This document shows, in pieces, positions 1 to 49,407 of a DNA stretch of 49,407 bases (positions are counted from its first letter, which is position 1; each line of letters starts with the position of its first letter). The DNA comes from a virus. Both the position numbers and the translations under genes were made by a program. The stretch is from the IMG/VR virus record IMGVR_UViG_3300032770_000030, positions 1 through 49,407 of that record. One strand, given 5' to 3'. The notes under the pieces were generated by a model. The model had not been told where the DNA came from and searched no databases. It saw only the letters and a list, made by a program, of their open reading frames with translations.

Positions 1-93
1 ACCTCCACCACCACCCCCACCACCACCGCCGAGAGCCGCAGCACCAAGTGAACCTGCCGCCCCGATACCTGCCGCCGCTGCTGCTACACACAT
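1..93 (-). CDS. Partial N-terminus of the internal virion protein (second copy of the gene start)
   Basis: This minus-strand reading frame encodes the first 31 residues (MCVAAAAAGIGAAGS...) of the gene that is complete near the right edge, and it is cut by the window start. It carries ten consecutive glycines where the complete copy has nine. An AAGGAG sequence six bases before the ATG is a strong ribosome-binding site. It is an assembly duplicate of one gene, not a second gene. Confidence 0.85.
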   Translation of the reverse strand, partial: MCVAAAAAGIGAAGSLGAAALGGGGGGGGGG

Positions 94-157
94 GATTTAC
101 TCCTTCGGGAGGTCTTTCAGTTTCAGTTCCATAACCGTATCGTCCGGCGTGTACCCA
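1..157. repeat. Left copy of the terminal overlap (circular or permuted genome)
   Basis: This stretch is repeated at the right end of the window. Outside a glycine-codon tract (about positions 1-31) the two copies are identical. The left copy is three bases longer and has a few substitutions, all inside that tract. The simplest reading is a circular assembly with an end overlap, as expected for a circularly permuted, terminally redundant phage. It could also be a short true terminal repeat. Confidence 0.9.
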
Positions 158-597
158 CGCTTCTGGAGGATGTCGAACATCTTCCCCGACATGGACACCG
201 GCCACCCCACGATACTGACGTTACGTTGGCGAAGCTCCTCTTCCACACTGGTAATGAACCTGGACATGGCCCTACGATAGTCGGGCTGCACATAGAACAT
301 GTCCACGTTCCCGCACAACTCCTTCCGAAGGTGCAGGCTGTAGTAGAGGATGGCTACACAGTAGCCGCGAAGGGTGCCGGCTTCGTCGCGTAGGGTCATG
401 GTCAGCAGCATATGAGCCGCCTCCAGAGCCAAATACACGTCGATGTTCGGATCAACCTTCAGGCCGCGCTGTCCGTGATAGGCACAGGTGTCCTTCTTGA
501 TTTCGGAGCATTCGTCCCAGGACGCCTGGCCAAGGGGGAGAATCTCCTGTGCCAGTTCATGGGTCATTGGCTCAATAGCGATAGTCAAGGCTTCCAT
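97..597 (-). CDS. GNAT-like N-acyltransferase of the tail module
   Basis: A 166-residue protein that resembles the GNAT acyltransferases often found among podovirus structural genes. The middle has the expected strand pattern (RGYCVAILYY, then CGNVDMFYVQPDYR) where acetyl-CoA binding strands beta4 and beta5 would lie. The C-terminus (ILQKRGYTPDDTVMELKL) matches the usual GNAT end. The start codon overlaps the preceding stop as TAATG, with GGGGG upstream, so translation is probably coupled to the tail nozzle gene. The substrate is unknown; it might acylate a virion or host protein. The family call is fairly confident and the role is inference. Confidence 0.6.
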   Translation of the reverse strand: MEALTIAIEPMTHELAQEILPLGQASWDECSEIKKDTCAYHGQRGLKVDPNIDVYLALEAAHMLLTMTLRDEAGTLRGYCVAILYYSLHLRKELCGNVDMFYVQPDYRRAMSRFITSVEEELRQRNVSIVGWPVSMSGKMFDILQKRGYTPDDTVMELKLKDLPKE

Positions 598-3455
598 TAG
601 AAACCCCCTTTAATAAGCTCTAATTCGAGGTGACTTGCCCGGAACGGGGTAAAGGCCGTGTGCCTGACCTGAAAGGCTCTGCGCCGGAACCGGCCCGCAG
701 GCGTTATTGTCGCACGTTGGCCCTGGTTCAGAGGCATTGTCCTGAAGGCCGAATAACTCTGATAGTCGTTGTCCGTATAGGCGACCATCGCATTACTGCT
801 CACAATGTCCCCAATCAGGGAGATGCGGCGGCAATGCTTCCACTCACTAGTCTCCCCATCAATCCGCTCAGTGACCAGCCTGACGTTGATCGGGTTGGTG
901 ACATCGCTATAGTAGGCGTAGTCCTGGAGGTAGATCACCCCACTGGTTTCGTCCTGGAGGTAGTCCTGATCCAGTATCTGTGTGGAAGCAGCACAGTCGA
1001 AATGGTTCTCACTGTAGCCCGTCAGGGTAGCAGTGCCTGCATTGGTGTCCAGCGCCGATGGAACCAGATAGGTGAAGGTGTTAGGCCCACTCACCATAGC
1101 GTTCCAGAGACCATTGTAGCCAGAAGTTGAGGCACCGCTGATGAGAACAGGGTCCCCATCGTTGAGGCCGTGGCCAGTGGCTTGCGCCGTCACCGTACCA
1201 TAGGAGTCGCAAGATAGCGACTGTATAGTCACAGTCTGGTTGGCCGTGGTGCTGGTCCACACGTCCCATTGCTGGGTGGTGAAGTTGTATACAAGGGTTA
1301 TGTTCGACGCATACAGAGTGATGAGATAAAGGGAGTAACCTGCTGCATCAAGGTTGTTTGAGCGAACATTTACCAGAGGGTCGGCCTGAAGGATACGGTC
1401 GATGAAAGGCGTGCTGATCCTGACAGGGGAGAAGTTCTGGAACATATAGACGCCCTGGCCTTCGATCTTAGTTTGGCCAACCCATACTATGTTGCCTTGC
1501 ATCTCACGAACGCTCTCACCGTTGGCGCACCCCACATCGAAGGGCAGCGATGTTTGAGGGGCGAGCGGACTCGATGGTGGAGGTGTCCCATTGTCGTAGA
1601 AGAACTCCGTTGTCCACTGGCCAAAGGCTACAACGAACTGGCCCAGCTTGGCCAAGGCCACCCCACCATTAGGCTCGTTCTCCATAGCCACATACTGGGT
1701 TGCCACCCACGTTGTGGGGTCGTTGATGTTGGAGTTCCAGATGCGACCTTGCGGGTCCATCACGAAGAAGTAGGTGTCCAGCACCACAAGGCCAGGGACC
1801 GTAGTGGCTGGGTAATTGGCACTGGTCGTGAGTTTGGTCAGCAACTGGAGCGACGCGTTGTAGTCATACAGGTCGTAGGGCGACTTGAAGACCAGCAACG
1901 GACTTGCTACCGTACTGGATGTCTGGTTGAAGTGATAAAACTGGTTGGCCACTGTAGGGCTTAGGGCATACGTGCCGCCACCAATGGAGATGTACCATAC
2001 GTCATCGTAGTAGTTGGAAGAAGCATCAATGCCAGAGGTGAACCACAGGTTGCCATAGGCGAAGAACTCCCCGTCACGAGGCGTCCAGCCAGAGGTGAAG
2101 GAGCAGTTCGTATTGGTGAACGTGGTGCCGTTGGTCGTTGACCACAGTACGTGGTCGTAGGTGCCGGTGGCCTGGAGTTCAAGGACATAGACTGTGCTGC
2201 CGATTGTGGCCACGCGACATGCCTTCGAGCCACCGTTTGAGGTGCCGTTGAGCATGGCGTATGCCTTGACATTGAAGCCCTCGTTGGATGTCTGGAAGCT
2301 GATCGTCGGCGGCACCGTGTAGCCGGAACCCTGGTTGGTGAAGGTTATCTCGGTGTACTGACCACCATCGAAGTCGGTATCGGGGTCGTCGTCTACATCA
2401 ACGAAGCCAAAGGCGGCGGCGCTCGTGCCATTGCCCCCAATCAGGGTGATGGAGGACGAGGGGATAGAGAAGCCCTGCCCTGCGGAGTCGAACGCGGCGA
2501 TAGGCCATAGGCCCGACGAGGCTACTCCAAAGGGGTTTGCACTGACGAGAGTCCATGTAACACCCCCTGTGCCGCCATCTGTCCACAGGTCTGAGGTGGC
2601 CGACGAGAAGGCGTCGATCAGCAAGCCCCCACAAACGTAGAGGGAAGTGCCCAAGCCATAGAAGGCGAAGTCGCTTCTGGCAATCCAGGGTGCACCATTC
2701 AGGCCAGTAGCCTGCGTCCAGCTTGACCCGTTACTGGAATACCAAACATCGTTGTATTTTGTGTTGGGGTACAGGCCATCAGGGCTAGTGGAGGAGTTCT
2801 GTCCTGCGCCCCCTGCTATCCACATGAAGCCGTTGAAGACCGTTGCGCCGAAGCGGCGACGTGCAGGCCACGCACTCGATGCAACCTGGGTCCAGTTAAT
2901 GCCGTCAGGGGTGGACCACACATCGCTGTAGTGGGTGCCAGTGGCCGAAGCTGCACCACCCATTAGATAGAGGGTGTTGTTGAAGACAAGGAGTGCGCCC
3001 TTCGCACGAGCGGCCCAGGGGGCAGCAGAAGTGATCTGGGTCCAACTGGTCCCATTGGCGCTTCGCCATACATCATTCAGGGCTGCGCCCGACGAATTGA
3101 CACCACCCATCACATAGAGGTAGCCGTTGAACCCCACCGTCATAGGTCCTGTGCGGTCGCCAAAGGCCGCACTGGAGGTAGCTTCAATCGCCGTCAACAG
3201 TGCCGACGAACCACTCAGCACATTGAGGGTGTCGCCGCTGATCGAGTAGAGGTTGTTCTGGTAGTTGGTGATCCCCTGACCAGTTCCCACTGTTCCCTGA
3301 TAGGCAATCTGAAGCCCCGGCCGCTTACGGGCCATCAGCATCTTGCGCGGCGTCACGTCCGTCACGCAGTTGACTGCCTTGGCATCGTAGAAGGTAGTCT
3401 GGTCCCGAGTCTCAAGTGGCTCGATCAGCGGAACACGGACAGGATTGGTGTCCAT
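597..3455 (-). CDS. Tail nozzle / packaged-DNA stabilisation protein with inserted Kelch propeller
   Basis: A 952-residue protein. The N-terminus (about 1-90: VPLIEPLETR, YDAKAVNCVTD, KRPGLQIAYQ) and the C-terminal third resemble the P22 gp10 / T7 gp12 class that forms the tail tube below the adaptor. Residues about 105-495 hold at least five Kelch-like blades, seen as repeats of a hydrophobic strand plus GG (YLYVMGG, TLYLMGG, FMWIAGG, SLYVCGG) followed by DVWRSANGTSWTQ-type strands. P22 gp10 is about half this length, so the propeller looks like an insertion. The first ATG after a GAGGT ribosome-binding site is at 3455; a TTG three bases earlier is less likely. The upstream neighbour is the tail adaptor, in the canonical gene order. 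Confidence 0.8.
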   Translation of the reverse strand: MDTNPVRVPLIEPLETRDQTTFYDAKAVNCVTDVTPRKMLMARKRPGLQIAYQGTVGTGQGITNYQNNLYSISGDTLNVLSGSSALLTAIEATSSAAFGDRTGPMTVGFNGYLYVMGGVNSSGAALNDVWRSANGTSWTQITSAAPWAARAKGALLVFNNTLYLMGGAASATGTHYSDVWSTPDGINWTQVASSAWPARRRFGATVFNGFMWIAGGAGQNSSTSPDGLYPNTKYNDVWYSSNGSSWTQATGLNGAPWIARSDFAFYGLGTSLYVCGGLLIDAFSSATSDLWTDGGTGGVTWTLVSANPFGVASSGLWPIAAFDSAGQGFSIPSSSITLIGGNGTSAAAFGFVDVDDDPDTDFDGGQYTEITFTNQGSGYTVPPTISFQTSNEGFNVKAYAMLNGTSNGGSKACRVATIGSTVYVLELQATGTYDHVLWSTTNGTTFTNTNCSFTSGWTPRDGEFFAYGNLWFTSGIDASSNYYDDVWYISIGGGTYALSPTVANQFYHFNQTSSTVASPLLVFKSPYDLYDYNASLQLLTKLTTSANYPATTVPGLVVLDTYFFVMDPQGRIWNSNINDPTTWVATQYVAMENEPNGGVALAKLGQFVVAFGQWTTEFFYDNGTPPPSSPLAPQTSLPFDVGCANGESVREMQGNIVWVGQTKIEGQGVYMFQNFSPVRISTPFIDRILQADPLVNVRSNNLDAAGYSLYLITLYASNITLVYNFTTQQWDVWTSTTANQTVTIQSLSCDSYGTVTAQATGHGLNDGDPVLISGASTSGYNGLWNAMVSGPNTFTYLVPSALDTNAGTATLTGYSENHFDCAASTQILDQDYLQDETSGVIYLQDYAYYSDVTNPINVRLVTERIDGETSEWKHCRRISLIGDIVSSNAMVAYTDNDYQSYSAFRTMPLNQGQRATITPAGRFRRRAFQVRHTAFTPFRASHLELELIKGGF

Positions 3456-3458
3456 CAA

Positions 3459-4214
3459 TTACCTCGAACGGGTGTCATAAAGGAAGCGGATCGAATCGGT
3501 GTTTTCCTGCGACCAGTCAACCATCTCTTCATATTGTTGGGCCGCCCTCATGCTGATCTCCTTCACCCGATCCATCGACGTGGCGTACTCCATACTGATC
3601 TCATTGGCCAGGCACCATGACAGGGCCTGATAGCACTCCTGCGGGAAGTCCACAGGATCAGTCCCAAGATTAACATCATCAAGTGTTGATAGGCACACCA
3701 ACCATATGGTCCTTGTAGCATCGTTAGGTGTAGGATAGAACGTGATAAAGCTGCTCACCCCAGTATATGCACTATCGTCCAGAGGTTGATACCAGTAACT
3801 ATTAACCACACCAAGACTTCCCTTAGCTCCGTACTGGTTATACTCCTGGATGGAGAGAGGGTCGATCGGTGTGTCGAAGCTGTTTGAATCTCTGATGAAG
3901 GCATACGTCACCTTTAGAATCTTTGAACAAACCACAGCACCTGTGCCTGAAGCATAGGGACCTATCTCATAAGTGTTCTGGCCTTCTATCAGAGGCACCG
4001 TGTTGTAGACAATCTTCCACATGGGAAGACCCTTACGAATCCACGCCTTAATCATCATGTTGAAGGCGAGCTGGACGTTGGCATAGTCTTGTGATGATGG
4101 GGGGTTAGTAGCGTCGAACGTCCCACAAAGGCGCAAGGCACGGTTCATTATGTCACTTGCCTGGACAGAAAAAGTGGTAGTAGTCAGTACTGTAGGAGTT
4201 ACTATGAGTGACAT
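3459..4214 (-). CDS. Head-to-tail adaptor (P22 gp4 / T7 gp11-like)
   Basis: A 251-residue protein of the adaptor family that sits between portal and tail nozzle. Visible hallmarks are the N-terminal helical stretch ASDIMNRALRLCG, the segment FNMMIKAWIRKGLPMW (the long helix followed by a Trp), and a C-terminal helical half (ECYQALSWCLANEISMEY). Length and position immediately before the nozzle gene fit this class. The stop is followed directly by the nozzle's ribosome-binding site, indicating one operon. A cargo function is unlikely. Confidence 0.75.
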   Translation of the reverse strand: MSLIVTPTVLTTTTFSVQASDIMNRALRLCGTFDATNPPSSQDYANVQLAFNMMIKAWIRKGLPMWKIVYNTVPLIEGQNTYEIGPYASGTGAVVCSKILKVTYAFIRDSNSFDTPIDPLSIQEYNQYGAKGSLGVVNSYWYQPLDDSAYTGVSSFITFYPTPNDATRTIWLVCLSTLDDVNLGTDPVDFPQECYQALSWCLANEISMEYATSMDRVKEISMRAAQQYEEMVDWSQENTDSIRFLYDTRSR

Positions 4215-33561: not shown

Positions 33562-33770
33562 CACACAAGGTCGGAGACAGAGTGTGGTGTCCTGTCCCGG
33601 ACAGCTGGGGCGTTGAGGATACCCACCTGGAAGGCACCGTAACGGCTGTCAGCAAGGTTGCTGGCATCCCCTACTGCACCGTACAGATAGATCAGGTGAC
33701 AAAAGTCGGCAGCATCTTCTTCGGCCCTGACGACAAGTGGTACGAACTGAAGACAAAGGTGTACCTATGA
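33558..33770 (+). CDS. Small beta-barrel-like hypothetical protein
   Basis: A 70-residue protein (HKVGDRVWCPVPDSWGVE ... VGSIFFGPDDKWYELK) with the turn and strand pattern of a small SH3-like or KOW barrel. Coupled to the polymerase gene by an ATGA overlap. Confidence 0.5.
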   Translation: MTHKVGDRVWCPVPDSWGVEDTHLEGTVTAVSKVAGIPYCTVQIDQVTKVGSIFFGPDDKWYELKTKVYL

Positions 33771-35413
33771 CAGTCCCCTCTTCCGGGCCGATGGATGCCC
33801 GCATCATGATCGTGGGCGAAGCCCCCGGCGTGGACGAGGTACGACTCAACACACCCTTTGTGGGCGCAAGCGGACAGTTGCTCGACCGGATGCTAGCGGA
33901 CGCAGGCATCAGTCGCTCCCAGTGCAGGGTCACGAACGTATGCAGGGAGCGGCCCCCCGGCAACAAGATCGAACTGTGGACACCACGCACCAAAAAGACA
34001 CAGGATGAAAGTCGCTCTCTTGGCTGGCCTACTTTGCTTGGCCGCGTGGTTCATCCTTCTGTGGCTGATGGTTACAGACTTCTCCTGGCAGAGATTGAAG
34101 CAGTTCGCCCTACGGTCATCATCGCCCTCGGCAACACCGCCCTGTGGGCGCTCACTGGTCTCGATAGTGTTGCAAAGTGGCGAGGCTCTACCCTGGAGAC
34201 GGAACATGGACTCGTGCTTCCTACCTATCACCCCGCCGGTGTCTTGCGCCAATGGACACTTAAGCCATGTGTCGTGCAGGACTTGCGGAGAGCATCCGAT
34301 GCGCTGCGAAGGTATCCGCATCATCCAGAGTGGTCTTTTCTTGTACGTCCTACGCTGTCCCAGGTGCGGGACACCCTTGAACGCCTTTATAACGAGAGTG
34401 AAAGAGGCCCGCTGAAGCTGGCAGTCGATATTGAGACGAGAGCCGGTCACATTGCCTGCATCGGCGTAGCCTGGAGTAACACTCATGCCATTTGTATCCC
34501 GCTACTGTGTGTGGAAAGGCCCGAAGGGTACTGGTCAATGGAGGACGAGGCTGAGATTGTGTGGCTTCTCTATAGGCTACTCACGCACCCTAACGTACTC
34601 ACGGTCGGCCAAAACTTTATTTACGATGCGCAATATATCCTTAGACATTGGCACTGGGTTCCACGCAAAGTTAGAGATACGATGGTAGCCCAACACGTAT
34701 GCTATCCCGGCATGCAAAAGTCCCTCGACTTCATAGCCTCAATGTATTGCGACTACTACGTCTACTGGAAGGATGACGGCAAGGAGTGGGACAAGCACGG
34801 AGATGATAATGAAGATCAGTATTGGCGATACAACTGTGAGGACTGCATTCGCACGTTTGAAGCCGATACCGTCCTACAGGAAGTGGTCGATAGAATGGGT
34901 CTGCGTGGACCACATGACTTCCAGCAGTCGCTCTTTGGTCCTGTTCTTAGGACGATGGCACGCGGCGTTCGTGTTGACCAGGACCAGCGTAAGGCCATGT
35001 TAAAGGAGCTAAAGGAACATGCACAGCAGCTTCAGGCGGAAGTTACCGAGATGGTTGGGTATGAACTAAATCCGAAAAGCCCAAAGCAGATGTGCACCTT
35101 CTTCTACGACGAGATGGGCGCAACAGCTATCCGCAATAGGAAGACAAAGGCACTCTGTTGCGACGATGAGGCGCTTGACAAGATTGGACAACGAGAGATA
35201 CTTCTTAGACCAATCACTGATCGCATCAAGGCGTACAGGTCTTGTGAAACCATAGCTTCGAATGCGCTTAAGGCGAGTGCAATCGGCTACGACGGTAGAA
35301 TACATTGCTCGTATAACATTACCGGCACCATAACCTTTCGGTTCTCAAGCAGTACTGATGCCTTCGGCAGCGGCATGAACCTTCAGAATATCACAGCAGG
35401 GGATAAGGAATGA
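33767..35413 (+). CDS. DNA polymerase I family, N-terminal part: UDG domain plus 3'-5' exonuclease
   Basis: A 548-residue fusion. Residues 1-190 form a family 4-like uracil-DNA glycosylase: GEAPG at 17-21, the VCRERPPGN loop near 50, and the HPAG motif near 160; the N-terminal CxxC of typical Fe-S family 4 enzymes is not visible. A PolA 3'-5' exonuclease follows with intact motifs LAVDIETR, QNFIYDAQYILRHW and YNCEDC. The polymerase thumb region continues up to MNLQNITAGDKE, just before motif A, where the gene stops. The stop overlaps the next ATG (ATGA). The missing palm motifs are in the gene at 36084. A UDG-like domain fused to PolA is known in SPO1-type phages, as I recall. Confidence 0.8.
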   Translation: MTVPSSGPMDARIMIVGEAPGVDEVRLNTPFVGASGQLLDRMLADAGISRSQCRVTNVCRERPPGNKIELWTPRTKKTQDESRSLGWPTLLGRVVHPSVADGYRLLLAEIEAVRPTVIIALGNTALWALTGLDSVAKWRGSTLETEHGLVLPTYHPAGVLRQWTLKPCVVQDLRRASDALRRYPHHPEWSFLVRPTLSQVRDTLERLYNESERGPLKLAVDIETRAGHIACIGVAWSNTHAICIPLLCVERPEGYWSMEDEAEIVWLLYRLLTHPNVLTVGQNFIYDAQYILRHWHWVPRKVRDTMVAQHVCYPGMQKSLDFIASMYCDYYVYWKDDGKEWDKHGDDNEDQYWRYNCEDCIRTFEADTVLQEVVDRMGLRGPHDFQQSLFGPVLRTMARGVRVDQDQRKAMLKELKEHAQQLQAEVTEMVGYELNPKSPKQMCTFFYDEMGATAIRNRKTKALCCDDEALDKIGQREILLRPITDRIKAYRSCETIASNALKASAIGYDGRIHCSYNITGTITFRFSSSTDAFGSGMNLQNITAGDKE

Positions 35414-35739
35414 AGAACTTTGAAACATTCGGCGCACGCCTCTATCGACTTCGGATGGAGCGCGACATGAACCAACGAATGCTTGCCACCAGAATAGGTG
35501 CGCACCCATCAGCCATAGGCTACTATGAGAAAGGTAAACAACACCCTGGCTACTGGGCACTCGTAGAGATGGCCCATGTCCTCAACGTATCCCTAGACTA
35601 CCTGATGCTTGGAGAAGAGTATGCCAATGCCCAACATACAAAAGAATCGCAGCTACGTGAAGCACGGGATGACGAATACTCCCGAGTATCGCGCGTGGCA
35701 GGAAATGATCCAGCGGTGCTACAATCCAAACGGGAATAG
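35410..35739 (+). CDS. XRE-type HTH protein inside the split polymerase
   Basis: A 109-residue protein whose first 75 residues are a Cro/CI-type HTH (RLYRLRMERDMNQRMLATR, then IGAHPSAIGYYEKGK). The C-terminal part after LGEEY may be non-native because the following gene overlaps it in another frame. AGGGG seven bases before the ATG gives independent translation. It may regulate the homing cassette or the polymerase operon. It is not part of a recognisable lysogeny module. Confidence 0.65.
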   Translation: MKNFETFGARLYRLRMERDMNQRMLATRIGAHPSAIGYYEKGKQHPGYWALVEMAHVLNVSLDYLMLGEEYANAQHTKESQLREARDDEYSRVSRVAGNDPAVLQSKRE

Positions 35740-36097
35740 ATATCATCGCTATGGTGGTAGAGGCATTACAGTATGTGCAAGATGGCTGGAATCGTTTGAG
35801 AACTTCTATAAAGACATGGGAGACAGGCCCTCTATTAGACACTCCCTAGACAGAAAGGACAATGACCTTGGTTACTATAAAGAGAACTGTCGATGGGCAA
35901 CCCCGGGTCAACAAGCCTACAATAAAACCCATAAAAAGAACTCTACAGGAAGGGTAGTAGGGGTAGCTTTAGGAAATAAGGAGTGGATGGCTTACGCCAA
36001 TAAGGACGGTAAAAGGGTTTATCTATACCACGGACAAGATTTTTTCGAAGCATGTTGTGCAAGAAAGTCCTGGGAGTTGCATCATGCCCCTACCTAA
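35621..36097 (+). CDS. HNH-type (homing-like) endonuclease inside the split polymerase
   Basis: A 158-residue protein with the common phage motif set RSYVKHGMTNTPEYRAWQEM, CYNPNGNRYHRYGGRGI, then SLDRKDND and NCRWATPGQQAYNKT. These occur in free-standing HNH/AP2-like endonucleases that cut invasion sites. GGAG six bases before the ATG supports the start at 35621. It overlaps the polymerase C-terminal gene by 14 bases. Location in a highly conserved active-site position is typical of homing endonucleases. Confidence 0.7.
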   Translation: MPMPNIQKNRSYVKHGMTNTPEYRAWQEMIQRCYNPNGNRYHRYGGRGITVCARWLESFENFYKDMGDRPSIRHSLDRKDNDLGYYKENCRWATPGQQAYNKTHKKNSTGRVVGVALGNKEWMAYANKDGKRVYLYHGQDFFEACCARKSWELHHAPT

Positions 36098-36800
36098 TAT
36101 TAGGTCCATGTTCATACCGGACCCCGGCATGATGATGGGCGACCTGGACCTGGACTCAGCGGACCTTCGAGTGGTGACATGGGAGAGCGACTGCAAAGGG
36201 ATGAAGGCTTTATTCCAGGAGGGGACCAAGCCCTACCTCGTTGTCGCTAGGGAGTACTACCATGACCCGTCGATATCTAAGGCGCATCCGGCCTATCATA
36301 CATTCAAGAAGCTGTGTCATGGAACGAATTACATGGGAAAGGCTTCAGAAATTGCGGGGCAATGCGGCTTACTGGTCAAGGAAGTGGAGCGTATTCAGAA
36401 ATGGTACTTTGGTATGTTCCCCGAGATTGCTCGGTGGCAGGAAGTCTTTATCAAGAAGTGTATTCGAACGGGTACTGTATCGAACGCCTTTGGGTACAGG
36501 AAGAAATTTCTCGAACGCATTGAAGGGAACGTCCTCAACCGGATGATTGCGTGGGTACCGCAATCAACAGTTGGCATCCTCATCAATAAAATGTATGTGG
36601 CTATAGACAAAGAACTCCCTGACGTAGAAGTTCTTCTTCAGGTTCACGATAGTCTCACATTCCAGCTTCCAGTAGAGAACAGTGTAATACATTTAGAGTC
36701 TATAAAAAAAGTATGTAATATTCCTGTTCCTTATCCTGAGCCTTTGTGGATACCTGTGGGAATAAAAACCTCTGATAAGTCCTGGGGAGATTGTAAGTGA
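36084..36800 (+). CDS. DNA polymerase I family, C-terminal part (palm and fingers)
   Basis: A 238-residue protein carrying the remaining PolA motifs. Motif A is DLDLDSADLRV (catalytic Asp), motif B KKLCHGTNYMG in the O helix, and motif C QVHDSL. It resumes the polymerase where the upstream fragment ends (LPNIRSMFIPDPG is the usual motif A lead-in). GGGAG seven bases before the ATG gives it its own translation start, so the polymerase is likely made as two subunits. An in-frame longer version starting at 36057 lacks a site. Confidence 0.8.
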   Translation: MPLPNIRSMFIPDPGMMMGDLDLDSADLRVVTWESDCKGMKALFQEGTKPYLVVAREYYHDPSISKAHPAYHTFKKLCHGTNYMGKASEIAGQCGLLVKEVERIQKWYFGMFPEIARWQEVFIKKCIRTGTVSNAFGYRKKFLERIEGNVLNRMIAWVPQSTVGILINKMYVAIDKELPDVEVLLQVHDSLTFQLPVENSVIHLESIKKVCNIPVPYPEPLWIPVGIKTSDKSWGDCK

Positions 36801-38856: not shown

Positions 38857-39042
38857 TTACCTGTGCTGTAGGAAGGTGCGCCACAACTCTAGAGCGGCCA
38901 CGCATGTCGCCGTAAGCCACCCAAGGACCTTGGCCGCTACGAAGGCACCCTTCCCCACAGCGACCATCTCCAGTATCTGATCCATCTGCGCCTGCATCTG
39001 GTCAAGCCTTTTCTCAAGGCAGTCAAAGCGTTCGTCGTTCAT
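38857..39042 (-). CDS. Holin-like coiled-coil membrane protein (XhlA type)
   Basis: A 61-residue protein with an N-terminal coiled coil (LEKRLDQMQAQMDQILEM) followed by a hydrophobic helix (GAFVAAKVLGWLTATCVAALEL) and a short basic end. This coil-plus-helix layout resembles XhlA holin-associated proteins. It sits between the protease and endolysin genes. The start overlaps the upstream gene by 20 bases. Confidence 0.6.
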   Translation of the reverse strand: MNDERFDCLEKRLDQMQAQMDQILEMVAVGKGAFVAAKVLGWLTATCVAALELWRTFLQHR

Positions 39043-39649
39043 GGTTGAAGTCTATCTTGTTGGTTGTTAGAAACTTCTTTATCGTCGTGCCCGAGATGAT
39101 GTTGCATAGGTGGTAGACGGGGGCGACGAACTCTTCCTTGCGCAGCACATCAAGACTGTCTACCAATCCCACATAGGCACCGTCGCTCGTGAACACTCCA
39201 CCTCCCGAGTTGCCGGGAGCGCATGGCGTTGTGATAAGGTCCCTGTCCTGGTAGTGTCCCAGGGTAAGCACCCAGTGCTCCCCGAGCGGGAAGCCAATAG
39301 TAAACACAGGCTCATATAGAGTCGGAGTCGGGCCGAACGAAACTGCCGGTGCGTCAAGGTCTTTTGTACCGCAAGCGACCGCGAGATCATCCTGGTCATT
39401 GTGCGCCACTTTCTTCATGGGGTACTCGGTGCCCGATGCCGTCGTGACTACAGGATCATCCACATCAGCCACATGACCGGCAGTTATGATGCAGCGTGGG
39501 TTGATGACGTTGCCCGTCCCCAAGGACCCGATCTGATCCCGCACCAGCACAGTCGTGGCCCTTGCCCTCAACCAGACTTCCCTATCTTTCCCCACCGTTG
39601 AGCAGCCGAGGGTCATCACTGCCACCAGCATCAATAGAACGTACTTCAT
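39023..39649 (-). CDS. Trypsin-like serine protease with probable lipoprotein signal, in the lysis cassette
   Basis: A 208-residue protein. Residues 1-16 form a signal sequence ending in GCS (lipobox-like TLGC; the -3 residue is not the usual Leu). The mature part is a chymotrypsin-fold protease with all triad motifs: His59 in ITAGHVAD, Asp88 in DDLAV, Ser148 in GNSGG. The start at 39649 follows GAGGAG seven bases upstream; an earlier TTG is weaker. Secretion to the periplasm, possibly anchored to a membrane, is inferred. Genes at this position usually encode spanins, so it might help disrupt the outer membrane or degrade periplasmic proteins. Confidence 0.7.
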   Translation of the reverse strand: MKYVLLMLVAVMTLGCSTVGKDREVWLRARATTVLVRDQIGSLGTGNVINPRCIITAGHVADVDDPVVTTASGTEYPMKKVAHNDQDDLAVACGTKDLDAPAVSFGPTPTLYEPVFTIGFPLGEHWVLTLGHYQDRDLITTPCAPGNSGGGVFTSDGAYVGLVDSLDVLRKEEFVAPVYHLCNIISGTTIKKFLTTNKIDFNHERRTL

Positions 39650-39905
39650 TTTTGCGCTCCTCAATAGCAGCGTTCAGGACATCCTGACGCTTAACAACTT
39701 CGTTGCGCATACTCTCAACGGCGGACTGTACCCCGCCAGTGCGTCGTGCGTTCTCGATTATCATAAGGGGGATCAAGGACAGTGTGCAGGTCCACTCATC
39801 CTTGGCGAGGCCAGTCTGCGGGTCCGTCATCTGGACATGCGTGTAGAGCATACATTGGTGCTCAATACACTCTTTCTTGAGGAACGGGCAGATAGGCGTC
39901 TTCAT
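39582..39905 (-). CDS. Small protein with Cys motif, possible lysis-region component
   Basis: A 107-residue protein with an early cysteine set (CPFLKKECIEHQCMLY, then WTCTLS) and a helical C-terminal half (VESMRNEVVKRQDVLNAAI). The cysteines could bind metal. It overlaps the protease gene by 68 bases. The helical, charged second half could act like an inner spanin part, but no signal anchor is seen. No family. Confidence 0.5.
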   Translation of the reverse strand: MKTPICPFLKKECIEHQCMLYTHVQMTDPQTGLAKDEWTCTLSLIPLMIIENARRTGGVQSAVESMRNEVVKRQDVLNAAIEERKNEVRSIDAGGSDDPRLLNGGER

Positions 39906-41755: not shown

Positions 41756-42616
41756 TCATTTCATCTCATAGACAATAACAACACCGTTTCCGCCATTACC
41801 ACCGCTCTCGGCTGGCTGATTTGCTTGATAATTTCCACCACAGCCACCTCCAGCGCCGTAACCTTGGGCGTTGTATCCTGCATTATTCCCCGAAGTACAA
41901 TAGGACATGCCAAGAGGAGAAGGACCACCTTGGGTGGAAGCAAAGGATGTCCCTCCACCAAAAACAATAAATCCCCCAGAACCCGCAAAACTTGTAAGAG
42001 TCAATGTAACATTGCTTATAGTTGGGGCGGAACTTCCAGGCCCCGCAGTAGAGTTAGTAGTGACAATTGAGGATGTACCACCTCCTGATATGCTAGCTCC
42101 CCCAGGGCAAGACACAAAAGAACCAAAAGAACTCGTCCCTCCTGCACTTCCTGCACCTCCTCCAGTCCCGCCACTTCCTCCAGTCCCAACCGTAACGGTC
42201 ACACCGCTAGGAACCGACTTCATATAGACCCTAGCGTAAGAGCCGGAGTACCCAGGGAAGCCAGTTGAACTTTGCCCACTCCCCGAAGCAGGCGCACCAC
42301 TAGCCCCACTTCCTGCGCCCATAACTTCAACGATAATTGAGGTGGTGCCAGGTGTTGGGTTATAGGTTCCCCCGGATGTGAACATCTGAATGTTTAGGAG
42401 ACCTGCCCCCAGCGTTATTGAAGTTATCCCACCTCCGTAGAAGATCGGGATCATGCCATCCGAGGCCATCGTCTTAGCAATAGCCGCACTATAGCTAGTA
42501 GCATCAATCCCGAAGGTTAGGTTCTTGAAGCTATTCCATAGCTTGAAGAACCAATCCTTGAATTGTCTCCAGTCGAAAGTCTGCCCACTGGGCGGCGGGT
42601 TGACGTTGTTAGTCAT
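41756..42616 (-). CDS. Glycine-rich tail fibre adhesin
   Basis: A 286-residue protein. The N-terminal 50 residues are a hydrophilic stalk-binding segment (FKDWFFKLWNSFKNLTFG). Then comes a polyglycine-rich body with repeated GGSGGTGGG-type loops (VEVMGAGSG, VTVTVGTGGSGG) ending in GGNGGNGVVIVYEM, the usual end of phage Gly-rich tail-tip adhesins. Such proteins fold into polyglycine II sandwiches and carry host specificity loops. The ATG at 42616 follows GGAG by eight bases; an earlier start ten codons upstream is less likely. It overlaps the ATP-grasp stop by eight bases. Confidence 0.7.
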   Translation of the reverse strand: MTNNVNPPPSGQTFDWRQFKDWFFKLWNSFKNLTFGIDATSYSAAIAKTMASDGMIPIFYGGGITSITLGAGLLNIQMFTSGGTYNPTPGTTSIIVEVMGAGSGASGAPASGSGQSSTGFPGYSGSYARVYMKSVPSGVTVTVGTGGSGGTGGGAGSAGGTSSFGSFVSCPGGASISGGGTSSIVTTNSTAGPGSSAPTISNVTLTLTSFAGSGGFIVFGGGTSFASTQGGPSPLGMSYCTSGNNAGYNAQGYGAGGGCGGNYQANQPAESGGNGGNGVVIVYEMK

Positions 42617-43928
42617 CTCCGTAGCTCCACGTCGTTGCAAACCCATTGGCTTTTAGCCGCTTGATGCCCTCTTTGCACCGATCCCCGATATCAGGACGCT
42701 GCCCATGGCTATTCGGCACCCTGATCTGCCCTACGATCCGATACGCATCAGCTTTAGCATCACTAACAGAGGGACCAGTACCCACAACAACAAGAGGCCA
42801 GCTTCCAGCAGTAGCAAAAAGGTCACGAGTGGACCATTTACCTTCTTCATATACTTCCTCTTCAGAAGCCATTACCTCACAGAGGTGAAGGTTCTTGATG
42901 TTTTCGTGGTTGATGCCGTAGATGGGAACGCCTTCGCAGTGCTCAGAAACCTTAGAGTTGTGCGGGAAGTTCGGCCCCACGATACAGACACCGATGCAAT
43001 GGTCCATGCTAACCTTAAGACTGTCTGTGCCGTGCACCAGGTCATACATCCATGTAACAGGGTCGCCTTTATGCATATGCTGGTTTAGGTAGAAGGCGGG
43101 CCAGCCCATACGCATGGTGAATTCAAGGGGCCACGGCACACCATCATCATCAATGATGACTGATACGTCAATGTTTCCTACGAACTTCAATGCTTTAAGG
43201 GCAGGTTCCAATGGGCGAAGTAACATCTCGAAGAGTTTACTATCTTCACAGTACTTAAGCGCTGTGCCCATTTCCCCGGTGTTAGGTCCCGTGTCCCCTG
43301 CGTAGAGTTGCTTGTGTTCAAAATTTTCCTCTAGTGCATTATTGAATCCATGTGGCCCGAACCACCCTGCCGTAGCGAACTCAACCCCTTTAGCTTTCTT
43401 TTGGAGGATAAAGTCCTGCTTGGCTGGGCCATAGATGCGTTGTGCCCTATGCATCATGGAGAGCATGTCATCAGGGCCACTGGCCACATACGAAAGGGAG
43501 CGATCAGCGTCTCCTATGGGCTTACAGGCATAACTATCATTGGTTGCTTTTACATGGAGCATTGCATCCTTGTAGCTACTGAACCTTGTGTAGGGAAGGA
43601 TCTGTGCGCCATGTGAAGAAAGGATATCTTGGCCCACTGTACGATCTAACTCCCACTCAGCAGATGCCTGATTTGCGCCGAAGATGGGATAGCCTGCCTT
43701 GAAGTATTGTTCAAGCTCTGCCCCATACTTGGCACTACAGGTCATAACAATGATATCTGCCCACTTCATATGGTCGCGCCAGTTTGACACTCTATGGGTC
43801 AGACCTTGCCCAATGCGCGGATACTTGCTGTTGGGGGTAAGAAAGTGTTTTACATCGTGACCCGCCCATTGCGCACGTAAACAGAAATCAACCCCTACAC
43901 CATAGCTATCAATGACAAGTACCTTCAT
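42609..43928 (-). CDS. PurD-like ATP-grasp enzyme in the virion/lysis arm
   Basis: A 439-residue protein with an ATP-grasp fold like glycinamide ribonucleotide synthetase (PurD). An N-terminal Rossmann-like pre-ATP domain (MKVLVIDSYGVGVDF) is followed by ATP-binding segments (CKPIGDADRS near 136-144, QKKAKGVEFATAGWF near 176-190). The PurD hallmark GDTGPNTGEMG is at 211-221, and the acidic EFTMRMGWPAF at 269-279 replaces the usual EFNVRFGDPET. The changed substrate-side residues (D to W, E to A, N to T) argue against purine synthesis. It probably ligates a carboxylate to an amine on an unknown substrate. It is coupled to the ejection-protein gene by an ATGA overlap. Confidence 0.75.
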   Translation of the reverse strand: MKVLVIDSYGVGVDFCLRAQWAGHDVKHFLTPNSKYPRIGQGLTHRVSNWRDHMKWADIIVMTCSAKYGAELEQYFKAGYPIFGANQASAEWELDRTVGQDILSSHGAQILPYTRFSSYKDAMLHVKATNDSYACKPIGDADRSLSYVASGPDDMLSMMHRAQRIYGPAKQDFILQKKAKGVEFATAGWFGPHGFNNALEENFEHKQLYAGDTGPNTGEMGTALKYCEDSKLFEMLLRPLEPALKALKFVGNIDVSVIIDDDGVPWPLEFTMRMGWPAFYLNQHMHKGDPVTWMYDLVHGTDSLKVSMDHCIGVCIVGPNFPHNSKVSEHCEGVPIYGINHENIKNLHLCEVMASEEEVYEEGKWSTRDLFATAGSWPLVVVGTGPSVSDAKADAYRIVGQIRVPNSHGQRPDIGDRCKEGIKRLKANGFATTWSYGDD

Positions 43929-46877: not shown

Positions 46878-48110
46878 TCAGTATCCTAGTTTGGCAAGGG
46901 CTGCTTTCTTCTCTTCAAGGCTCATTGAGGGATTGTTCTTAATGGCCACAGCACGAGGATCAGCAGCCATCTTTTCAAGTTGGGTCTGTTCCTTCTTGGC
47001 TGGTGCAGGGGCATTAGCAGGTGGGCCAGGCTTGAAGTCATTGGGGGTCTTTGGCCCAAACCATCCGCCGCTGCCCCCCTGGAACATACCCTCTCTTGCC
47101 ATCTGGTCCATCTGGTCGGCCAGTGCCTGTGCATAGTCCTCCGGTTCATACTCAGCGTCGCCGGATTGAACCATCTGCTGGGCGATCTGACGCTTGGCCC
47201 GCAGCGCTGCAACGTTGGCCAGGGCCTTCTGTGTGTTCGGGTCGAGACCAGAGGTACGGTCATCGGTTGCAAAGATGCCTTCAGCCACTGTCTTCTCAGG
47301 ACCCTGCACCTTGGAAGCGTTGGCGTACGTGCGGTCCTCCGCCTGGAGTTCCTTGAAGTGCAGACCTTCCTGGAAGCGTGAGTCGCGGCGGTCGGCTTCC
47401 TTCTCGTTGTCCACCTGCTGGTGCCTTCTCAAGTCAAGCATGGCATTCTGTACATCAATGCGCTTGCTGGCCTGATCGAGGCGCTGTGCGGCGAAACCGT
47501 TCTGAACCCCCCGCTGAGTCTCAAGGTCGGCCTCACGTTGCGTCCTGTCCGCAGCCAGCACCTGTTGGGCACGGCTCATAGACATCTGTGCCAGTTGAGG
47601 CAAGCGTGGCCCATCCTGACTGAAGTCCCCCGTAATACCATACTGTGCAGGATTAAACCCCAGTGCCTTGATCCGGGCAAGGGCCGCATCCTCACTAGCC
47701 TGGTCTGTCACAGACCCAAGAGCGCTACCCACTTCTTCGAAGTTGCGGTACTGTGTCTGCTGGTAGTCCTTCTGTGTTTGTGCCTGACGATAGGAGAGCA
47801 TGGACAGGGCTGACAGGAACTGGGAACCAGCCTGCGCCTGTCCGTGGGCGAACAGGGACTGCGCCGTCGCCATCAGTTTGGGGGCGCTCGACGGATCGTT
47901 GGGGTCCACAGACGACAAGCCACCAGAACCCCAAATCTTGGTCATGTCCTGTTGCAGGGCCACCTGGTTCTGCAAGGCAAGCTGGTTCGACACGATCTCC
48001 TGCTTCTTGATCGTAGCATCCTCTTGCAGGATGGTCGATTGGATCGGCGCATTGTAGGCATCGAACGCCACCTGCACGAGGTTGGTTGGTGCGCTGATAG
48101 AGTATGGCAT
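46878..48110 (-). CDS. Internal virion (ejection) protein, coiled-coil
   Basis: A 410-residue helical protein (QDMTKIWGSGGLSSVDPND, SYRQAQTQKDYQQTQYRNF, RTQREADLETQRGVQNGF) with long heptad regions, and a Pro/Lys-rich C-terminal part (PGPPANAPAPAKKEQTQLEK). Its place between the gp14-like and transglycosylase genes matches gp15-type ejection proteins. AAGGAAC precedes the ATG. Channel or adhesion to DNA is inferred. Confidence 0.65.
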   Translation of the reverse strand: MPYSISAPTNLVQVAFDAYNAPIQSTILQEDATIKKQEIVSNQLALQNQVALQQDMTKIWGSGGLSSVDPNDPSSAPKLMATAQSLFAHGQAQAGSQFLSALSMLSYRQAQTQKDYQQTQYRNFEEVGSALGSVTDQASEDAALARIKALGFNPAQYGITGDFSQDGPRLPQLAQMSMSRAQQVLAADRTQREADLETQRGVQNGFAAQRLDQASKRIDVQNAMLDLRRHQQVDNEKEADRRDSRFQEGLHFKELQAEDRTYANASKVQGPEKTVAEGIFATDDRTSGLDPNTQKALANVAALRAKRQIAQQMVQSGDAEYEPEDYAQALADQMDQMAREGMFQGGSGGWFGPKTPNDFKPGPPANAPAPAKKEQTQLEKMAADPRAVAIKNNPSMSLEEKKAALAKLGY

Positions 48111-48119
48111 GATGGTTCC

Positions 48120-49343
48120 TTACTCGTAGAAGCCGTAGCCGTTGGTGCCACTGTAGCCACTGTACGTGGTGTCGCCAAAGCCACTGGGTCCGTAGAGGGC
48201 TGCATTGTAGCCTGCGTCCACGTTGCCGGTGGAGAAAGCGTCGGCGGACGAGGTAGCAGACGATCCGAAGTTAAGGCCCGAGGCCAGGTTGCCCAGGCCA
48301 TTGGCAAGGCCACCAAGGCCACTGCTCAGGTTGCCCGCACTGACCTGATTGGCCACACCCAGGTTGGCCAGGATGCCGCCTGCCGTCGATGGGCTGGACT
48401 GGCTTGCCTGCGTAGCGGTCAGCAGACTGGACAACAACCCTTCATTGCCCGAGATAGCCTGGCTGTTGATGCCGGTCATCCCCGACAGAAGGTTCAGCAG
48501 GTTGCCCGCCGTTCCCTGTTGCTGCGTGGTCTGGAGTTGCTGCGTGCCCAGCAGGTTGCTGAAGGTGTTCTGCCCTTGCTGCGACAGCAGACTGCCCAAG
48601 CCAGAGGCTGCGCCCGTTTGTGTCCCATAGGCAGTGTTGGCTGCGCTCTGTGCATTCAGCAGGTTGGTGATGTTCTGCTGGGTTGCCTGGGAGGCATAGT
48701 TCTGGCCGTACTGTTCCAGGGACACAGCCTGATTGCCCGAGCCTATCAGACCTTGCTGCGCCATAGTGCTGTTGACCGCATTCATCCCCTGCTGGTACTG
48801 GAACTGTTCGCCCGAGGTGAAAGAGTAGGGGTTCTGGCTCAGGATGGACTGGACGCTCGACGGCAAGCTGACGCTCTGCGGGTTGTTCACCAGCGACGTT
48901 AGTGCATTCGAACCAGCGTTAGGCCCAATGGTTGCAGCGTTGTTCAGCGCCCCCGTATTGGTGCCGATCTGCGCATTGCCCATGATCGAGTTGAGGTAAG
49001 ACAGTTCATTATTCTGCGCAGTTGACACCTGCCCCTGGATGCCGCCATTCAACAGGGACGACAGTGCTCCATAGTATTGGTCGGCCTGACTGCCGAAGGG
49101 GTTGGCTGCTACTGCACCTGCCTGTAACTGGTTGAGGTTGCCACCACTCAAACCCTGAAGACCTAGTGCTGTAGATACGTCACCACTCATGATTCCAGTC
49201 AGGGTCTGCCCCAGGGACTGAAGGTTGTCCGTGTAGTTGACATTGCTCCCGGAACCTCCACCACCACCACCACCACCACCAAGAGCCGCAGCACCAAGTG
49301 AACCTGCCGCCCCGATACCTGCCGCCGCTGCTGCTACACACAT
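48120..49343 (-). CDS. Internal virion protein (gp14-like), Ala/Gly/Gln-rich
   Basis: A 407-residue protein starting MCVAAAAAGIGAAGS. A run of nine glycines (GGT codons) follows, then Gln/Asn/Ser-rich repeats (SLSSLLTATQASQSS-like) and a Gly-rich C-terminus. The short hydrophobic N-terminal segment recalls gp14 of T7, which forms the periplasmic ejection pore. The gene is cut by the circular junction: its start is duplicated at the left edge with ten glycines. The GGT tract is a candidate length-variable microsatellite. Confidence 0.65.
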   Translation of the reverse strand: MCVAAAAAGIGAAGSLGAAALGGGGGGGGGSGSNVNYTDNLQSLGQTLTGIMSGDVSTALGLQGLSGGNLNQLQAGAVAANPFGSQADQYYGALSSLLNGGIQGQVSTAQNNELSYLNSIMGNAQIGTNTGALNNAATIGPNAGSNALTSLVNNPQSVSLPSSVQSILSQNPYSFTSGEQFQYQQGMNAVNSTMAQQGLIGSGNQAVSLEQYGQNYASQATQQNITNLLNAQSAANTAYGTQTGAASGLGSLLSQQGQNTFSNLLGTQQLQTTQQQGTAGNLLNLLSGMTGINSQAISGNEGLLSSLLTATQASQSSPSTAGGILANLGVANQVSAGNLSSGLGGLANGLGNLASGLNFGSSATSSADAFSTGNVDAGYNAALYGPSGFGDTTYSGYSGTNGYGFYE

Positions 49344-49407
49344 GATTTACTCCTTCGGGAGGTCTTTCAGTTTCAGTTCCATAACCGTATCGTCCGGCGT
49401 GTACCCA
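49254..49407. repeat. Right copy of the terminal overlap
   Basis: Matches positions 1-157 of the window and differs only within the GGT/GGA glycine tract, where it is three bases shorter. See the left copy for the interpretation. Confidence 0.9.
49344..49407 (-). CDS. Partial 3' end of the GNAT gene (duplicate)
   Basis: The last 61 bases correspond to the C-terminal coding end of the acyltransferase gene that is complete at the left edge (stop at 49347). It is an assembly overlap, not a separate gene. Confidence 0.8.

Follow-up and report, generated by a model that had tools for sequence, protein, structure and literature searches.

Why should the virion operon of a phage contain a gene whose closest named family is an enzyme of purine synthesis? 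The stretch of DNA analyzed here (the window, 49,407 nucleotides long) was described in a first-pass annotation as carrying a PurD-like ATP-grasp enzyme between an ejection-protein gene and a tail adhesin gene. The suggestion was that the protein is a ligase acting on a protein of the virion, on a cell-wall peptide or on a small molecule. The open reading frame exists as described and begins with ATG. It is listed with the other genes of the operon in Table 1.

Table 1. The ligase gene of the window and the virion-operon genes around it
Feature	Coordinates	Strand	Remarks
GNAT-type acetyltransferase, same operon	97..597	-	weak Pfam match; strong match to the GNAT of relatives
Head closure Hc3 / packaged-DNA stabilization protein homolog	597..3458	-	phrog_578, 3.2e-33
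Tail-adaptor-like protein	3459..4214	-	phrog_12985; named tail adaptor in relative MW202796
Gly-rich tail-fiber-like protein, downstream	41756..42646	-	phrog_863, 8e-31; overlaps ligase 3' end
PurD-like ATP-grasp ligase	42609..43928	-	439 aa; Pfam, NCBIfam and PDB matches, and fold
Internal virion/ejection-type protein, 983 aa	43925..46876	-	N-terminal SLT transglycosylase; stop overlaps ligase start (ATGA)
Virion-operon protein, 410 aa, gp20-like position	46878..48110	-	position only, no family match
gp7-like (DNA ejection) protein, 407 aa	48120..49343	-	profile match, E 9.9e-29

The gene order is P22-like: tail adaptor, stabilization protein (phrog_578), gp7-like protein (phrog_598), gp20-like protein, a gp16-like protein of ~1000 aa, and then the ligase. 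The operon spans the ends of the sequence, running from 4214 down to 97 and then from 49343 down to 42609, and the start of the gp7-like gene is repeated at window positions 1-93. Since positions 1-157 and 49251-49407 share about 157 bp (95% identity), the record corresponds to a nearly complete genome of about 49.25 kb that is terminally redundant or circularly permuted. Both immediate neighbors of the ligase are those originally claimed, with the ejection-type gene upstream and the tail-fiber-like gene downstream.

The similarity of the protein to PurD is far above chance, with E = 1.3e-20 against NCBIfam TIGR00877, but its equivalog score of 73.6-73.7 bits falls below the curated cut-off of 288 bits. 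Pfam GARS_A (PF01071) is matched over its gathering score (32.2 bits, E = 1.2e-7, against 27) and GARS_C (PF02843) under it (24.8 bits, E = 2.8e-5, against 34.8). In all 59 family members scanned the best NCBIfam match is purD. The best PDB match has E = 4.6e-12 for the ligase alone and 1.2e-32 with the family profile. The ligase of the window gave no Pfam or NCBIfam match to D-Ala-D-Ala ligase or RimK-type peptide ligases, and PRK01372 was touched by only 2/59 relatives in the NCBIfam scan (E = 4.5e-4). A comparison of predicted structures had been proposed. An AlphaFold2 model built with 58 relatives has the complete four-domain PurD fold (pLDDT 93.1, pTM 0.92). The solved structures that match it best are all PurD, led by the Aquifex enzyme (2yw2; Z = 35.9 over 395 aligned residues, 3.2 A, 20% identity), and the next fold group is PurK/PurT with Z about 24.

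A QM/MM study of Aquifex PurD (PMC8880213) assigns K103, K143, E185, E192 and K214 to ATP, E100 and K214 to metal, and D212, R287 and E292 to glycine. The ATP residues align with R96, K136, Q176, E183 and K206 of the phage protein, and the ATP side is retained apart from two replacements, both conservative (K to R at R96, E to Q at Q176). E100, D212 and R287 align with E93, E204 and R273, and E292 with position 278. Invariant in 163/163 members are E93, R96, K136, Q176, E183, E204, K206, E219, E269, T271 and R273. The ATP-binding lysine, acidic metal ligands and fold that an ATP-grasp enzyme needs are all present, with K136, E183, K206 and E269 invariant.

On the substrate side, the carboxylate-binding arginine of PurD (R287) is kept as R273, and the glycine-site set as a whole is not retained. 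D212, the acid that meets the amino group of glycine, is lengthened to glutamate (E204) in 163/163 members, and its partner E292 is lost, position 278 being A, L or T. N285 becomes T271 in 163 members, and D290 becomes W276 in 156 of 163. The PurD motif EFNVRFGDPET reads EFTMRMGWPAF in the window, as had been noticed. The PurD hallmark GDTGPNTGEMG, described at first as present, is indeed in the open reading frame but is itself altered, since 20/20 cellular PurDs read GPNTGGMG. The glycine replaced within this signature is E219 in the phage sequences (GPNTGEMG), without exception in 163. The N-domain GxGGREHA loop, invariant in 20 PurDs and thought to hold phosphoribosylamine, is absent from the phage family, and the YSPAP loop is gone. 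In the C-domain R411 and D413 are retained in 162/162, and WFGPxGF (residues 189-195) is a conserved motif apart from the assigned ATP residues. Most of the substrate-side replacements are themselves invariant, which in the alignment is the pattern of a changed substrate and not of decay. The proteins have the PurD fold but probably carry out another reaction. EFTxRxGWP and TGExGT are motifs by which a family member can be recognized.

The ligase family is phage-specific. The first scan of IMG/VR gave 3 close relatives of the ligase, and scans with the family profile gave 199 and then at least 573 matching stretches. Among 50,697 annotated phage records the only member is in MW202796 (Manatee Spring), with 41% identity and unannotated there. 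That record also carries a ubiquitin-like label. The one member in GTDB genomes lies on a betaproteobacterial MAG contig with phage-like gene content. A PHROGs search with the ligase found no matching family, and a BFVD structure search returned only distant ATP-grasp proteins, although unlisted kin may exist. Two IMG/VR records that carry the gene, 2900613355 and 2802429417, appear to be genome-derived. Deduplication left 164 unique proteins, or 68 representatives at <70% identity; the average pair is 45% identical. An IQ-TREE tree of 69 phage sequences and 20 cellular PurDs splits the two groups with 100/100 support, the combined branch between them being ~4.7 changes per column. In close pairs synonymous sites are saturated (pS) with pN about 0.18, indicating strong purifying selection. 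We sought a cellular source and rejected it. In 100 Pseudomonadota genomes the family profile finds ordinary PurD (20/20 extracted matches have GPNTGGMG), and among 398 genomes no sequence except that on the phage-like contig reaches a member's score. One ligase copy (L206, G102:C1:38373-39686) has an in-frame TGA, reflecting either a pseudogene or a sequencing error.

In relatives the ligase usually lies directly 3' of the ~1000-aa ejection-protein gene, and 105/164 unique members have an exact 4-bp stop/start overlap with the upstream gene. Within the same loci this overlap is found in 34/52 ligase pairs vs 65/296 other adjacent pairs (Fisher p = 1.5e-9, a value that is only indicative because the loci are related). 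The proposed linkage to virion rather than purine genes extends to every relative examined. Homologs in a purine cluster, named beforehand as counter-evidence, were looked for; a Pfam scan of representatives of the neighboring families found no purine gene among the 25/39 matched families listed, which include replication, lysis and tail families.

The position of the gene is not fixed. In the two earliest-branching members (L129 and L132) it lies amid tail genes beyond the major head protein, away from the ejection protein and still within the virion module. A single obligatory neighbor as partner of the ligase is ruled out by these two loci. Nor did the upstream protein show a shared tag at its C-terminus that might serve as substrate, as the upstream C-termini are unconserved. 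By eye, a carbohydrate kinase and a cupin isomerase lie near the ligase in L129 (16078-17374, minus strand), and a glycosyltransferase-like gene adjoins it in L132 (8529-9911, minus strand). The gene is also dispensable. Among P22-like loci with the same hydroxylase (see below) and gp7 it is absent in 15/25, and in EBPR podovirus 1 the place of the ligase is without an annotated gene and tblastn gave no match.

Other enzymes enter the same operon. Among 39 relatives with long upstream flanks, a GNAT occurs in 15 and an Asp/Asn-hydroxylase-like 2OG enzyme with the HxD...H pattern in 14, with at least one of the two in 25 (GNAT only 11, hydroxylase only 10, both 4, neither 14). Their site is between the stabilization-protein gene and the gp7-like gene, and it is here that the GNAT of the window is found. 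Both are amino-acid- or protein-modifying classes. When hydroxylases were used as seeds, the ligase was present in 14/47 loci whose downstream flank measured 8.5 kb or more, making it a common but optional addition to the operon. GNAT-seeded loci mostly carry it, though these seeds are biased, being taken from ligase phages. A fixed GNAT-hydroxylase-ligase pathway is rejected by the 14/39 loci with neither enzyme and by the hydroxylase-seeded count. The phage alignments of the GNAT and hydroxylase families proved too divergent to be scanned together. Asp/Asn-hydroxylase-like 2OG enzymes are present in many P22-like virion operons with or without the ligase (L017 1415-1978, L114 5109-5708, L111 4597-5175 and others). 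In nine representatives a protein of ~120 aa, which we call HELVE, is encoded between the ejection protein and the ligase (for example L016 9639-10001, L023 8897-9259 and L117 2277-2657, among others). Its invariant residues are H48, E49, E52, C56, D70 and H91, and its model (pLDDT 95) has weak similarity to a zincin-type protease (6mdw, 61 residues, E = 0.45). One alignment row (L083) was in the wrong reading frame and was left out ahead of folding.

What then might the ligase do? The reading we prefer, and to which we give a little less than an even chance, is that it is an active ATP-dependent carboxylate ligase that modifies something the phage makes, a virion protein being the likeliest target. 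Catalytic activity is predicted from the conserved residues and the model. The enzyme would bind ATP and two metal ions like PurD, activate a carboxylate held by R273 as an acyl phosphate, and pass the acyl group to a nucleophile other than phosphoribosylamine, giving an amide or ester bond. Its expression would be late, as part of the virion operon, and in most cases its translation would be coupled to that of the ejection-protein gene. The likeliest acceptor would be a virion protein of the phage, above all the ejection proteins translated along with it, which a podovirus injects into its host. A virion protein is favored because the co-resident enzymes are protein-modifying and because of the coupling to ejection-protein genes, whereas a single fixed neighbor as target is disfavored because the gene moves and there is no conserved tag. 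The virion protein is our best guess from context. A place in the operon may tell when the gene is expressed, late in infection, and not what the enzyme acts on. A bolder version, possible but doubtful, is that this is an ancient unnamed family of PurD-fold phage enzymes that attach an amino acid, or some other carboxylate, to the ejection proteins after translation, alongside GNAT acetylation and Asp/Asn hydroxylation, a finishing of the injected proteome hidden in metagenomes as purD.

It is possible, if unlikely, that the enzyme instead makes a small molecule or peptide late in infection, such as an amino-acid conjugate or a change to a peptidoglycan or lipopolysaccharide precursor, in a short pathway with the GNAT and hydroxylase-like enzyme. 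R273 and the acidic E204 would keep an amino-acid-like site, the C-domain R411 and D413 are retained, both co-resident classes also occur in small-molecule pathways, and one divergent relative (L132) has the adjoining glycosyltransferase-like gene noted by eye. Yet 14 of the 39 long loci lack both the GNAT and the hydroxylase and the others have one or both, so no fixed pathway is seen, and the ligase is present in only 14 of the 47 hydroxylase-found loci with enough flank.

Modification of a host protein, either in late infection or after packaging and ejection with the neighboring ejection proteins, seems to us improbable. It would accord with the coupling to ejection-protein genes, and phage R2K-clade ATP-grasp peptide ligases are predicted to modify host proteins (PMC4431377, PMC7824862). 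But no packaging signal is known, and, barring a packaged enzyme, the late position is ill-suited to taking over the host early.

There is only a slight chance that this is a divergent but genuine GAR synthetase that boosts purine supply as an ordinary auxiliary metabolic gene. The best family match and closest fold are those of PurD, viral purD or GART genes are reported in metagenome surveys (PMC11097641, PMC11360552, PMC12043954), and the protein shares with PurD (TIGR00877; PDB 2yw2 and 1gso) the four-domain fold, the ATP and metal residues, the R287 equivalent and a C-terminal RxDIG. Against this, the GGREHA loop, EFNxRFGDPE, GPNTGGMG and the YSPAP loop are replaced or lost, with residues invariant in 20 cellular PurDs swapped for others that are also invariant. 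The score of 73.7 bits is far under 288, and the gene lies within a virion operon with no purine gene among the neighboring families listed. A purine role is therefore disfavored, and the opinion that this is not an ordinary PurD is borne out both by the score and by the replaced phosphoribosylamine-loop and glycine-site residues. That the protein is a catalytically dead fold serving as a virion part or assembly chaperone is barely credible, for while the gene lies among virion genes and WFGPxGF is conserved beyond the ATP-assigned residues, every ATP- and metal-side residue is the same in all 163 sequences, a constancy for which a dead enzyme would have no use.

ATP-grasp ligases of phages are already known. 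Like the R2K clade (PMC4431377) this is a phage-encoded ligase with its protein target unassigned, but R2K is a different divergent ATP-grasp clade as described, and the present family is clearly PurD-type. The ATP-grasp/amidoligase/glutamine amidotransferase sets of LUZ24-like phages (PMC3890496) also provide phage-encoded carboxylate-amine ligase chemistry, but they lie in an early module and are about 290 aa, whereas the present ligase is late, has 439 aa and is without amidoligase or amidotransferase partners. The operon resembles the P22-type morphogenesis operon in gene order (tail adaptor, stabilization protein, ejection proteins) and in its phrog_578 and phrog_598 matches, and differs from it in having the ligase appended at the end and the GNAT and/or hydroxylase inserted ahead of the first ejection-protein gene. 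The first-pass annotation knew of no characterized phage example, and we likewise found no description of a PurD-fold virion-operon ligase in the open-access literature, to which the search was confined (subscription papers lay outside it).

The family is in at least 573 viral stretches and yet has no PHROG and no annotated representative among the phage records searched. With purD as the nearest family that has a name, it may be recorded by automated annotation as an auxiliary gene of purine metabolism. Some of the viral purD or GART genes of the surveys cited above may belong to it, given that purD is the best NCBIfam match in all 59 members scanned. One of those surveys, of the ocean, accepts matches of at least 60 bits and reports viral 'GART' as virus-enriched. 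Should family members be passing as purD, a claim about viral metabolism would have to be revised. In addition, the operon makes it possible to ask directly whether P22-like ejection proteins are chemically modified.

Some other features of the window may be noted. A family A DNA polymerase that carries a fused uracil-DNA-glycosylase domain (33737-36800, plus strand) is split into open reading frames at 33737-35413 and 36057-36800. Between the halves lie an XRE-type helix-turn-helix gene (35410-35739), the same split with such a gene being seen in L001 and L003, and an HNH/homing-endonuclease-like open reading frame with no Pfam match (35609-36097, plus strand). A trypsin-like peptidase with a lipoprotein-like N-terminus (39023-39664, minus strand) is encoded beside the GH108 lysozyme and holin genes.
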